DNA of 64,000 nt. Source: Candidatus Sumerlaeota bacterium (GTDB taxonomy: Bacteria > Sumerlaeota > Sumerlaeia > Sumerlaeales > Sumerlaeaceae). The notes beneath the pieces were generated by a model. That model was not told the DNA's origin and searched no databases. It saw only the letters and a program-made list of their open reading frames with translations. Location of the stretch: NCBI GenBank assembly GCA_012513815.1, contig JAAZBM010000001.1, forward strand, positions 1-64,000, in the 5' to 3' direction. The stretch's first letter is position 1, and every line of letters begins with the position of its first letter. Of this stretch, positions 26,222 to 30,232 are shown piece after piece. The position numbers and the translations under genes are program-made.

Positions 26222-27406
26222 GTGCGAATATCTCACTTGAGTTTGTATAACTGGAAAAACTTTGATTCGGTTGATTTGTCCTTGCAAGACCGTGTTTTTG
26301 TTGTCGGCCCCAACGCCTGCGGCAAATCCAACCTCTTTGATGCCGTACGATTCCTGCATGATTTGGTTGTTCCCGGCGGCGGTCTGCTGCCTGCGCTGTT
26401 CATTCGCGGCGGCATGGCGCACATCTTGCCTTTCAACATGTCCCCCGAGAAAATGCAAAAAGCCTCGGTACGCATTACTGTCAAGGTCAAGGAGTCGGCG
26501 AATACCTACTGGGAGTATGATCTTGCGTTTCGCATCAAATCGCCCACGGAACATATTCCCGTCGTGGCCAGCGAGGTGGTGCGTTATACCAACGATGGCG
26601 TGACGGAAGTGCTACTCGAACGTCCGACGGATGAGGACAAAAACGACCTTGTCCGGCTGACGCAAACGGCCATGGAACAATCTTCCTGCAACAGCAAGTT
26701 CCGGCCGCTCTCGGCGTTTTTCTATTCCATTCGTGGATCGCGGATGTCCATAGCGGGCGTCTACGAAAGCATCCAACAGACATTCGAGAATTTTGGGTCT
26801 GCCGAGCACCGCCCCATCGGCATCGACCTCATTGCATCCATGGCCATTCTGCCGCCGGAGGAGCGCAAACACCGGCTTGCGCGGCTGACCGAGACGATGC
26901 AGCGGCTGATTCCGGATTTGGAATGTATCGAATGGCATCCTTCCGTCGGGCGACGCACCTGTTTGCGGTTGCGTCAGCGCAAATGGCCGGAATCCAAATT
27001 CGCTGATGAAACAAAACTTTCTGATGGAACACTGCGGCTGATGGCGTTCTTCTGGTACGTCAGTCAAAAAGGCGGTTTGCTGCTGTTGGAAGAACCCGAG
27101 ATTTCCATGCCGCAAGCGGTTCTGACTGTCATGGTGCCTTATGCCTACGAAGCGCAACAGCATGAGGGCGGCGGGCAGTTGCTCATCTCGACGCACAGCC
27201 CCGTACTGCTGCAGGACTACGGCATTGCTGCCGAAGAAGTCATCATCGTCAATCCCGACGAGAACGGCAATTCCCATGCGACGCTGGCCGCGGACATCCC
27301 CGAAATCGCCGATGTCATGCAAGTCAGCATGAGCGCTTCCGAGGCTATTTTCCCGCTCATTGACAACCCGGCAAGCGCAATCGACCTACTTCGAACAAGG
27401 CTCTGA
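26222..27406 (+). CDS. SMC/ABC-type AAA ATPase (COG4637-like), first gene of a two-gene system
   Basis: This is a 394-residue protein. The GTG at 26222 is chosen because GGAAGGAG lies 8 nt upstream. It opens RISHLSLYNWKNFDSVDLSL, the typical RecF/OLD-like start, then Walker A GPNACGKSNLFDAVRFL. A split insertion follows, then the signature-like KLSDGTLRLMAFF, Walker B GGLLLLEEPEISMP and the H-loop LLISTHSPVLLQDY. This is the toroid-type ATPase used by OLD, PARIS and related defence or repair modules. It is separated from the next gene by 3 bp, so the two products are probably made together and interact. No strong promoter was identified. Confidence 0.85.
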   Translation: MRISHLSLYNWKNFDSVDLSLQDRVFVVGPNACGKSNLFDAVRFLHDLVVPGGGLLPALFIRGGMAHILPFNMSPEKMQKASVRITVKVKESANTYWEYDLAFRIKSPTEHIPVVASEVVRYTNDGVTEVLLERPTDEDKNDLVRLTQTAMEQSSCNSKFRPLSAFFYSIRGSRMSIAGVYESIQQTFENFGSAEHRPIGIDLIASMAILPPEERKHRLARLTETMQRLIPDLECIEWHPSVGRRTCLRLRQRKWPESKFADETKLSDGTLRLMAFFWYVSQKGGLLLLEEPEISMPQAVLTVMVPYAYEAQQHEGGGQLLISTHSPVLLQDYGIAAEEVIIVNPDENGNSHATLAADIPEIADVMQVSMSASEAIFPLIDNPASAIDLLRTRL

Positions 27407-27409
27407 GTT

Positions 27410-28702
27410 ATGCCGGAAAACACGCCTGCGACAATGACGGGTCCCATCGACCCGGCAAAAATTAAGCGGAAAATCTCTTTCCTCTGGGGCGAGGGACTCA
27501 CTGATTTGGTGCTTGGCAAGACCATGCTGCAGAAACTCGGCGTCCTGTCGCCGCAGGCTCGCACCGGCCACACAGGCGGATGCGACGCGTTTTGGAAGCT
27601 CTCACCCGTTATGAATCGGCTAGCGCAGTCGGGGCATCTTGTGCTCGGACTGACGGATCTCGACGACTGGGCCTCGCCGAACGAATTACTCGATAGCCAT
27701 TTTCCCCAAGGCATCAACTCCAACTTTCTGCTGCGTGTGCCGATTGTCATGCTCGAGAGCTGGGCATTGGCGGACATCAAGGGGATGGCGCAATATCTTC
27801 AGGTGGACGAAGCGCTTTTGCCACGGGACGCGCAAACAATCCGCATGCCCAAGGTGACCATCGTTGAGTTGGCACGGCAGTCCGCAAATCAGCGCATCGC
27901 GACGGACATTGCCCCGCCGCTCGCAAGCCGTGCACGGGTCGGGCGTGGATACACGACGCACCTCCTGCGGTTCACGGAGACAGTTTGGGACCCGTGGCGC
28001 GCGATGCAAAACAACGAGAGTTTGCGCCAAGCCATCGACGCCATTACAACGGCGTGTACAACGGATGCGCCGGCGCCAGCGAGTATCGACAAGTTTACCG
28101 AAGCTGTCTTTGAAAAAGACCCTCCTACCTTGACAGAAACGGACCGAGAGGATGAGCTGAAGACGCCGCGCAAAATGCCGAAGTTCGATTACGATATCCC
28201 CGGCGACACGTGGTTTGTGACTCTGTTTCTCGCCGATGCGATTCCCCTTGAGTATCTGAAGAAGATGCAACAGGAGTTGCTCGAATGGATGAAGAAACAC
28301 GAGGGCACGGAGCTTACGGCAGCGCTGCGGCAACAGCGCAACGAACTCTTCCCGCAACGCATCGAAAACTTCCTCGACAAAGGCGAAGGCTCTTGCCTCT
28401 TCAACGATACACGACTGGCGCGAGCGGCTCAAGAATCGCTCGAACATTACAACGGACGGCGCTATAATCTCGGGCGTTATGCCATCATGCCGAACCACAT
28501 TCACGCCGTGCTTACGCTGCCACCGGACGAGAATATCACGCGAGTCATCAGAACCATCAAACATTCGTCGGGGGATTTGCTCAACAAACTGACAGGGCTG
28601 TCATCGGGAACGCCGGTGTGGCACCAACACACATTGACGCAACAGGTGCGCAATGTCACGGAACTTGCAAAGGCCAATCAGGTTATCTTTCTTAGCCAGT
28701 AA
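27410..28702 (+). CDS. TOPRIM-like protein fused to a tyrosine-less RAYT (HUH) domain
   Basis: This 430-residue protein has two parts. Residues 20-215 resemble a TOPRIM nuclease: FLWGEGLTD (E28), LGLTDLDDWASP (D83, D85) and VMLESWALAD (E116) give the E...DxD...E arrangement of the partners of OLD-like ATPases. A linker of about 40 residues follows. Residues 258-430 match REP-associated tyrosine transposases: WFVTLFLADAIPLEYL, LFNDTRLARAAQESLEHYNG, YAIMPNHIHAVLTLPP (HUH H363, H365), then VWHQHTLTQQVRN. The expected catalytic tyrosine after that helix is absent and the protein stops at residue 430. Fusion of these two families is unusual. The domain may act as a DNA-hairpin reader. Confidence 0.75.
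   Translation: MPENTPATMTGPIDPAKIKRKISFLWGEGLTDLVLGKTMLQKLGVLSPQARTGHTGGCDAFWKLSPVMNRLAQSGHLVLGLTDLDDWASPNELLDSHFPQGINSNFLLRVPIVMLESWALADIKGMAQYLQVDEALLPRDAQTIRMPKVTIVELARQSANQRIATDIAPPLASRARVGRGYTTHLLRFTETVWDPWRAMQNNESLRQAIDAITTACTTDAPAPASIDKFTEAVFEKDPPTLTETDREDELKTPRKMPKFDYDIPGDTWFVTLFLADAIPLEYLKKMQQELLEWMKKHEGTELTAALRQQRNELFPQRIENFLDKGEGSCLFNDTRLARAAQESLEHYNGRRYNLGRYAIMPNHIHAVLTLPPDENITRVIRTIKHSSGDLLNKLTGLSSGTPVWHQHTLTQQVRNVTELAKANQVIFLSQ
28181..28702 (+). other. RAYT-derived segment within the fusion gene
   Basis: This is the part of the preceding gene that encodes the RAYT-like domain. It is in frame with no stop or separate start in between, and begins near the codon for residue 258. 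It may be a captured domesticated transposase domain. I see no flanking REP-type palindromes beside it. Confidence 0.6.
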
Positions 28703-28705
28703 AAA

Positions 28706-30127
28706 TCAGTGTTTGCCGTAGATGCTCTCATACGAAGTGTAGCAATTCTTGCCCATGCCCTTCGAATGATACAGCGCCTTGTTGGCGCGGTGAATACTCT
28801 GGGCAAACGTCAGTTCATCGCCGCTGTTGACGATGCAACTGCCGATGCTCACCGTGATATTATCCTTAACATGTCCGACGATTTTGTTGTTGAAGTTCAG
28901 CGTCGGGACTTCCCTGAGAATGCGGCATGCCAGAGCGTCTAATGTTGACGACGATGTGTTTGGCATTATAAACACAAACTCCGCGCCACAGAGACGACCC
29001 ACCAAACCTTCTTTTTCGGGGACAAGAGTCGCCAGATACTCCGCAAGAATGACAAGCACACGGTCGCCAATCATGTGGCTGTGGTTGTCGTTGAAACTCT
29101 TGAACGAATCAATGTCAATCGTCAGAATCCCGATGTTATTCGTTCCCTTTTTCAGTTCGGCTTCGAGGTACTCCGTGATTGTCGCGCGGTTCGGGATGCG
29201 TGTCAGGTAATCCATCCGGCTCAGCATCGCCCGTTCGCGGTTGCGGTGTAGGAGTTGCCTGTACATCTTGTTGAGGACGCGCGCGAAATGGTACATCTCG
29301 CGAGACCCGGAAGGAGTGAGCTGAATGTTTGCTGTCCCATCAAGCTTGTTGAGGACGCGCAAATAGCGCAAAACGGGCATCAATATCAAGAACATGAAGG
29401 AGATAAACCCGAGCAATAGCAGTATCAACATAATGAATTGCGTATAGCCCATGATGCGCATGCCCCGTTGGAATTCATTGAGTTTGGCCAGGGACGATTC
29501 GGTGAAATCCTTGTTGATTCCGTAATTGAAATCATCGACTTGCGCAATAATCTGTTGCTTCTGGCGGTTGTATTCCTCGCCGAACGCGTACTCAATCGCT
29601 TTGCGAATCTTCTCTGCGGGCGTCAGGGCGGCGTCTGTCGGCATCAACTGAACCGACGCCACTTCCTTGGGCATCTCCGAGATCGGCATCCCAACACCCT
29701 CAGCGGTCATGCGCATCGCCCAACGTTCGCCATTGATTAAGCTATCTGATTCATTCTTGGCGGCGATGGCGGCGGCCCGTTCCTGCGGGTTGATATTCAA
29801 CTCCAACAACTCGCGAAGAGAGACATCGCGAGTTCGAGTGACGTTGACTTCCTCCCAGTACTGGTCCATGTGTGAACGCTTCTGCGTCGATACATACTGC
29901 CACATCTGGGTCGTCAGCAAATCCGATGCCTTCATGAAATTGTGGATAATTTCAAGACAGCTCTTGCGTGTTCTCTCCAACTCCACAACATTCGCCAAAG
30001 AATTGTTGACATGCAACATACGAACCAACGACAGGCCAACCAACGAGATCGCCAACACAAGGATGAACACGTATGGCGTATAAATACTTATGTGATATTT
30101 GGATTTACGGTTTGACAAAACGCTCAC
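28706..30127 (-). CDS. Membrane GGDEF protein with degenerate active site
   Basis: This is about 473 residues if translation starts at GTG 30127; the frame extends to a TTG at 30193. Helix 1 is YVFILVLAISLVGLSLV, followed by a helical extracytoplasmic domain of roughly 220 residues. A second helix (FIMLILLLLGFISFMFLILM), a HAMP-like connector and a GGDEF domain (DYLTRIPNRATI, ILTIDIDSFKSFNDNHSH) follow. The signature loop reads RLCGAEFVF in place of R-x-GGDEF-x. The first metal Asp is kept, but the GG and D of the loop are changed, so cyclase activity is doubtful. It may bind GTP or c-di-GMP or act as a scaffold. It is convergent with the RAYT fusion gene, with 3 bp between stops. Confidence 0.8.
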   Translation of the reverse strand: MSVLSNRKSKYHISIYTPYVFILVLAISLVGLSLVRMLHVNNSLANVVELERTRKSCLEIIHNFMKASDLLTTQMWQYVSTQKRSHMDQYWEEVNVTRTRDVSLRELLELNINPQERAAAIAAKNESDSLINGERWAMRMTAEGVGMPISEMPKEVASVQLMPTDAALTPAEKIRKAIEYAFGEEYNRQKQQIIAQVDDFNYGINKDFTESSLAKLNEFQRGMRIMGYTQFIMLILLLLGFISFMFLILMPVLRYLRVLNKLDGTANIQLTPSGSREMYHFARVLNKMYRQLLHRNRERAMLSRMDYLTRIPNRATITEYLEAELKKGTNNIGILTIDIDSFKSFNDNHSHMIGDRVLVILAEYLATLVPEKEGLVGRLCGAEFVFIMPNTSSSTLDALACRILREVPTLNFNNKIVGHVKDNITVSIGSCIVNSGDELTFAQSIHRANKALYHSKGMGKNCYTSYESIYGKH

Positions 30128-30137
30128 CTGTAATAGT

Positions 30138-30166
30138 AGTATAAAACACTGCACAATCAATTTCAA
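30138..30166 (-). promoter_or_regulatory. Promoter for the degenerate GGDEF gene
   Basis: Minus strand: TTGAAA (30166-30161), 17-bp spacer, TATACT (30143-30138). Transcription would start only a few bases before GTG 30127, implying a near-leaderless message and arguing against the upstream TTG start. Confidence 0.55.
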
Positions 30167-30232
30167 GCATTTTATTATCCCATAAATTGTCAATCGCTAT
30201 TCTACCTCGATTATTGTATTTATCCCTTTGGA

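Follow-up and report, generated by a model that had tools for sequence, protein, structure and literature searches.

A HEC-01 candidate anti-phage gene pair carrying an in-frame, truncated RAYT domain on its TOPRIM protein

Hma-embedded candidates (HEC) are candidate defence systems, several of which have tested anti-phage activity (PMC12111858, PMC12988326). Among them, HEC-04 (IbfA) is an ABC ATPase fused to a TOPRIM domain and has anti-phage activity (PMC12111858). HEC-01 is catalogued in PADLOC as a candidate anti-phage family of two proteins, HEC-01A and HEC-01B, the second typically a single-domain protein of ~200 aa, and no study of HEC-01 function was found in the open-access literature searched. 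The combination of an ATPase with a TOPRIM domain also characterizes the class 2 OLD nucleases, and a similar ATPase plus nuclease logic is found in PARIS (AriA/AriB) and Gabija (GajA/GajB). The established role of RAYTs (TnpA-REP) is binding of REP hairpins. In-frame REPs inside genes are known (De Nocera 2013, PMC3733652), REPs inside RAYT genes preserve the reading frame, and unexpectedly long RAYT proteins have been left out as presumed fusions or misannotations (both PMC6006769). Here we describe a locus in a 64,000-nt stretch of a Candidatus Sumerlaeota genome (the window), at which a HEC-01 pair and a RAYT domain meet in one reading frame. Gene 1 and gene 2 lie on the same strand in the order A, B, with 3 bp between the stop of the former and the start of the latter, and the locus has the following features.

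26222..27406, + strand: gene 1, HEC-01A, OLD/RecF-type ABC ATPase, 394 aa, GTG start (PADLOC PDLC04180, AAA_21/AAA_15, motif positions)
26306-26329, + strand: Walker A GPNACGKS, residues 29-36 of gene 1
27017-27031, + strand: signature LSDGT, from residue 266 of gene 1
27077-27100, + strand: Walker B LLLLEEPE, from residue 286 of gene 1
27188-27199, + strand: H-loop STHS, from residue 323 of gene 1
27410-28702, + strand: gene 2, fused ORF of 430 aa including HEC-01B, linker and RAYT (ORF list)
27410..28063, + strand: HEC-01B domain, TOPRIM-like, residues 1-218 of gene 2 (PADLOC PDLC04194, conservation, fold model)
27491-27493 (E28), 27656-27664 (D83/D85), 27755-27757 (E116) and 27851-27853 (K148), + strand: putative TOPRIM residues of gene 2
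28064..28174, + strand: linker from the HEC-01B end to the RAYT core, residues 219-255, without REP-like inverted repeat; homologous HEC-01B proteins end here
28175..28699, + strand: RAYT/Y1 HUH domain, residues 256-430, with a possible internal ATG at 28175 (Y1_Tnp, NF047646, own profile, alignments, fold search)
28496-28504, + strand: HUH motif H363-I-H365 (alignment)
28682-28684, + strand: V425 at the position of the catalytic Tyr, C-terminal end missing (alignment)
28700..28702, + strand: TAA stop of the fused ORF, separated by 3 bp from the convergent GGDEF gene
28706-30193, - strand: convergent GGDEF gene (ORF list)

Gene 1 matched the HEC-01A profile PDLC04180 with an E-value of 7.7e-89 over residues 1-382, i.e. 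its full length, and also matched AAA_21/AAA_15 in a domain profile search. Residues 25-214 of gene 2 matched the HEC-01B profile PDLC04194 with an E-value of 7.4e-34. By these matches the pair at 26222-28702 is HEC-01 and not a new system. It shares with the PADLOC family both proteins, gene order, tight spacing, and matches over the whole of HEC-01A and the whole HEC-01B domain, and differs from it in the C-terminal RAYT domain of HEC-01B and in lacking Hma genes. The neighbours of the pair are leuD, leuC, a GGDEF gene, and uvrA, with the locus sitting between leuC and the GGDEF/uvrA pair; Hma embedding is the discovery context of the HEC-01 family and not a property of every member. Likewise, a HEC-01B of ~200 aa is typical of HEC-01 but not defining, and the locus, with its HEC-01B of 430 aa, is filed as a HEC-01 variant, since both profiles are matched in full. 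As in class 2 OLD nucleases and HEC-04, an ATPase is combined with TOPRIM, and the best PDB folds for HEC-01B are OLD TOPRIM regions, but the window pair consists of two separate proteins and the TOPRIM similarity is remote. HEC-01A also matches the AriA and GajA profiles weakly (66 and 41 bits, respectively, versus 296 bits on its own profile), whereas the pair lacks a GajB helicase, no helicase ORF being present beside it in the ORF list, and gene 2 has no AriB profile match. Membership in Gabija, PARIS, or OLD was rejected on account of weaker profiles and the wrong architecture; gene 2 matches HEC-01B profiles only. The original prediction, made from the sequence alone, had given the coordinates, strand, 3-bp gap, and in-frame join of the TOPRIM-like and RAYT halves correctly, and had recognized an OLD/RecF-like ATPase, all four motifs of which are located in gene 1, as part of a defence-type ATPase–TOPRIM pair, in agreement with the HEC-01A and HEC-01B matches. 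It knew of no described system with this fusion; the pair is already catalogued, and the RAYT tail alone is new.

Gene 2 had been proposed to carry a TOPRIM-like E28...D83-x-D85...E116 pattern. In an alignment of 54 homologues, E28, D83, E116, and K148 show at least 90% conservation, up to full invariance, and this acidic motif is therefore not due to chance. The two halves of gene 2 were modelled separately with AlphaFold. The model of residues 1-240 (pLDDT 92.5) places E28 directly after strand 1 and D83/D85 directly after the strand formed by residues 77-81. The five best PDB entries in the fold search with this model each represent the TOPRIM-bearing C-terminal part of a class 2 OLD nuclease, with probabilities of 0.90-0.97 but E-values of 0.02-0.06 and TM scores of ~0.4, i.e. 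remote. Assignment of the N-terminal half to the TOPRIM fold class, as predicted for residues 1-230, is thus well supported by motif conservation and model, while any family tie of HEC-01B to OLD would be remote.

A genome scan yielded 80 relatives of HEC-01B from many bacterial phyla and some archaea. These proteins have ~200 aa, and HEC-01A is encoded directly upstream in every case but L107, where the contig starts within HEC-01B. None of the 80 is fused to a RAYT, and neither is any of 19 further homologues recovered from 780 genomes of two phyla (one with Verrucomicrobiaceae, one with Phycisphaerales). The 19 are too short for a RAYT, and those longer frames whose complete sequence was inspected represent an N-terminal extension or a neighbouring gene. 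A 683-aa open frame considered as a long HEC-01B resolved into a HEC-01B of the usual kind (205 aa) and a separate gene after it. Within the class of the window, taken to be Sumerlaeia by record titles, HEC-01B occurs in only two other genomes of 39, one with a plain pair (L022) and one with its start cut by the contig end; a close relative of the window with the same HEC-01B-RAYT fusion was not found, and searches of phage, plasmid, and IMG/VR sequences gave no useful match to pair or fusion. Among family members, gene order around the locus was informative for leuC-leuD only. The generality of the TOPRIM-RAYT fusion, set beforehand as the test of the original prediction, was not borne out: the RAYT part is absent from all ~99 HEC-01B homologues (80 + 19), and on present evidence from these sequences the fusion is therefore lineage-specific and unique so far.

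Residues 256-430 matched Y1_Tnp (E 9e-6) and the REP-associated transposase model NF047646 (E 7e-10, below the cut-off of this model), and scored 211.9 bits against our own RAYT profile, of whose 12 rows the window sequence is one. The fold model of this half matches IS200-type/RAYT structures, including hairpin-bound 4er8 (E 1.7e-5). The tail resembles RAYT/TnpA-REP proteins in its HUH motif, the conserved W and R after HUH, and the Y1 fold, but differs from them in lacking the catalytic Tyr, the C-terminal end, and flanking REPs, and in being fused to another protein. HUH is present in 70 of 70 related RAYTs and YIxNP (or a near form) in 66 of the 70 by pattern. In the window, this catalytic motif, whose tyrosine we take to correspond to Y115 of 4er8, is replaced by VIFLSQ and a stop, with V425 at the position of the tyrosine and the stop five codons later. 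Accordingly, none of the last six conserved columns of the 70-RAYT alignment is kept, versus 23 of the 32 before them. A frameshift hiding the RAYT end was rejected, as the other downstream frames do not encode YIxNP (by eye). Because the catalytic tyrosine and the C-terminal end are absent, the tail is, as far as its residues tell, catalytically dead and cannot work as a RAYT nuclease. The in-frame HUH domain claimed originally is thus real, with its Y1_Tnp/RAYT match and H363/H365 in place, but the RAYT end is missing. A gap of 3 bp separates the stop of the fused gene from the end of the convergent GGDEF gene, which would fit trimming of the tail by a deletion; the junction at 28700-28706 and the loss of the RAYT end may go back to one event.

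In the LPH..FRLADSLP start, the tail also departs from the conserved sequence at several positions (MPK..LFLADAIP). In a tree of 70 RAYTs, the window has an end branch of 2.51 substitutions per site versus a median of 0.54 (~4-5x), so that its exact place in the tree is unsure. The frame is open over 174 codons, GC3 is 0.66, and the tail resembles neighbouring genes in codon usage and codon-position GC. As neutral drift of 0.2 substitutions per site left the frame open in only ~4% of simulated cases, the tail would either have diverged mostly under constraint, be it before or after the fusion, or have been released from it only recently. No inverted repeats of at least 16 nt are present at 28000-28760, so there are no flanking REP hairpins, and the genome of the window (a 66%-complete assembly) contains no second RAYT-like match.

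Some RAYT matches in related genomes fall in ORFs of more than 1000 aa. The related RAYT subgroup was found in frame with 22 other host genes, mostly with host sequence on both sides. Hosts were named by Pfam for most loci and by reading the flanking sequence for L244, L253, and L255.

LeuRS: RAYT inside (L025, L027)
ValRS: RAYT inside (L206, L208)
AlaRS: RAYT inside (L242-L244)
FabZ: RAYT inside (L252, L253, L255, L256)
NadE: RAYT in frame (L207)
PurH: RAYT in frame (L248)
HsdR: RAYT in frame (L024)
PglX-like and Eco57I-like methylases: RAYT in frame (L023, L241, L245, L247)
SNF2 helicase: RAYT in frame (L026)
DinG-type helicase: RAYT in frame (L246)
DUF1156 methylase directly beside a HEC-01 pair: RAYT in frame (L110)
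MoeA: RAYT as N-terminal fusion (L250)

The two genomes with an insert in LeuRS each yielded a single LeuRS gene. In one of them (G032, L025, 5731-9105), a REP-RAYT-REP block of ~250 aa sits cleanly in frame inside the only LeuRS gene found, and the LeuRS of the same-genus genome G026 (L271) represents the empty site, lacking the block while its flanks align, with 679 of 870 positions identical to G032. Inverted REP arms of 41-50 nt surround the RAYT in all three embedded loci tested, and the embedded copies keep HUH and the tyrosine in the 70-RAYT alignment. The fused state requires 12 changes on the 70-RAYT tree, at least six of them forced by well-supported branches, versus 19.5 with shuffled labels, and AlaRS and FabZ copies interleave; fusion therefore arose repeatedly and clusters in some lineages. 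Among 40 genomes of the phylum of the window, the only Y1 transposases encoded within ORFs longer than 350 aa are those of this RAYT subgroup. The window fusion is apparently one more case of this recurrent in-frame joining to host proteins. Genome G166 has related RAYTs in two hosts, FabZ (L252) and AlaRS (L243), which suggests movement between in-frame sites. In L110 (3962-6501), a HEC-01 pair is directly followed by the DUF1156 methylase gene with its in-frame RAYT, and upstream lie a Fic-like gene and a long ORF whose end resembles DUF3883 (by eye), consistent with an Hma-type context. RAYT relatives on two IMG/VR contigs (L257, L258) adjoin an opposite-strand terminase-like gene (by eye), which places the subgroup also in phage-like contigs.

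We consider it probable that the locus is a HEC-01 candidate anti-phage operon with an in-frame captured and then truncated RAYT relic. By analogy to OLD, Gabija, and PARIS, HEC-01A would sense, or assemble on, an infection signal and, with ATP, would allow the TOPRIM nuclease HEC-01B to cleave nucleic acid. A RAYT gene of a subgroup prone to in-frame joining with host coding sequences would have become fused to the 3' end of HEC-01B, and subsequent truncation would have taken away the catalytic tyrosine together with the final portion of the fold and any REP hairpins at its flanks. The tail would now be a dead, fast-evolving relic tolerated by HEC-01B and presumably dispensable, the nuclease function most likely resting on the TOPRIM part alone, although DNA binding may persist. 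Against a relic stands that the tail is not obviously decaying, given its open frame and native codon usage. These same features, together with the HUH motif, the 23 of 32 columns kept before the truncated end, the fold match to hairpin-bound 4er8, and the established role of RAYTs, are compatible with a domesticated sensor, in which the non-catalytic RAYT would bind hairpins or ssDNA and guide the HEC-01 nuclease to structured DNA, e.g. phage replication intermediates. We regard such a sensor as unlikely, with the tail found in none of ~99 homologues, its very long branch, its altered start, and neither REP hairpins at the locus nor a second RAYT in the 66%-complete genome. Domesticated hairpin recognition, as originally proposed, is thus possible but has the intact frame as its only positive sign, set against the missing tyrosine and C-terminal helix and a branch ~4-5x the median; a captured relic is the more probable reading.

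As to the origin of the captured relic, simple loss of the stop codon between adjacent HEC-01B and RAYT genes fits the sequence as well as insertion does. The first residue of the RAYT core, residue 256, is encoded by an in-frame ATG directly behind the 37-aa linker. This, the mobility of RAYTs, and the RAYT-bearing methylase gene next to HEC-01 in L110 would all suit an adjacent RAYT gene that is now reached by read-through and possibly also made from the ATG at 28175. That the locus works in this way is nevertheless quite improbable, as no good ribosome-binding site is visible near 28175 (by eye) and a RAYT without the tyrosine could not act alone. An assembly or binning artefact that joined HEC-01B to a RAYT fragment might be suspected from the singleton nature of the fusion and from the state of the source assembly (66% complete, 17 contigs), but the join is exactly in frame, codon usage and GC are alike on both sides, and the junction lies in the interior of a 93-kb contig, which makes an artefact very unlikely.

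The HEC-01B of the window is a clear case in which to ask whether an ATPase-TOPRIM nuclease is altered by a fused DNA-binding relic. The wider in-frame RAYT pattern matters more than this single fusion, whose chief value is as a pointer to it. As with in-gene REP and RPE palindromes (PMC3733652; Rickettsia RPE), palindromic repeats are tolerated in reading frames, tRNA synthetases included, but in the relatives described here the host protein includes the translation of an entire RAYT gene together with its REP arms. No report of whole RAYTs embedded in frame in housekeeping proteins was found in the open-access literature searched. Tentatively, and with low confidence, we propose that a RAYT subgroup lives as "protein-embedded REPtrons", i.e. 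REP-RAYT-REP units read in host proteins, many of them essential, and that the window would represent a later stage in which mobility and catalysis are lost and a structured-DNA-binding tail is left on a defence nuclease. If RAYT and REP arms can sit in frame in AlaRS, LeuRS, ValRS, FabZ, or NadE and leave the host viable, they would constitute a class of mobile or domesticated elements hidden inside proteins. Embedded RAYTs would then be shielded from deletion by an essential host gene, in an intein-like manner although apparently without splicing, which would bear on the long persistence of REP/RAYT elements and on the origin of new protein domains.
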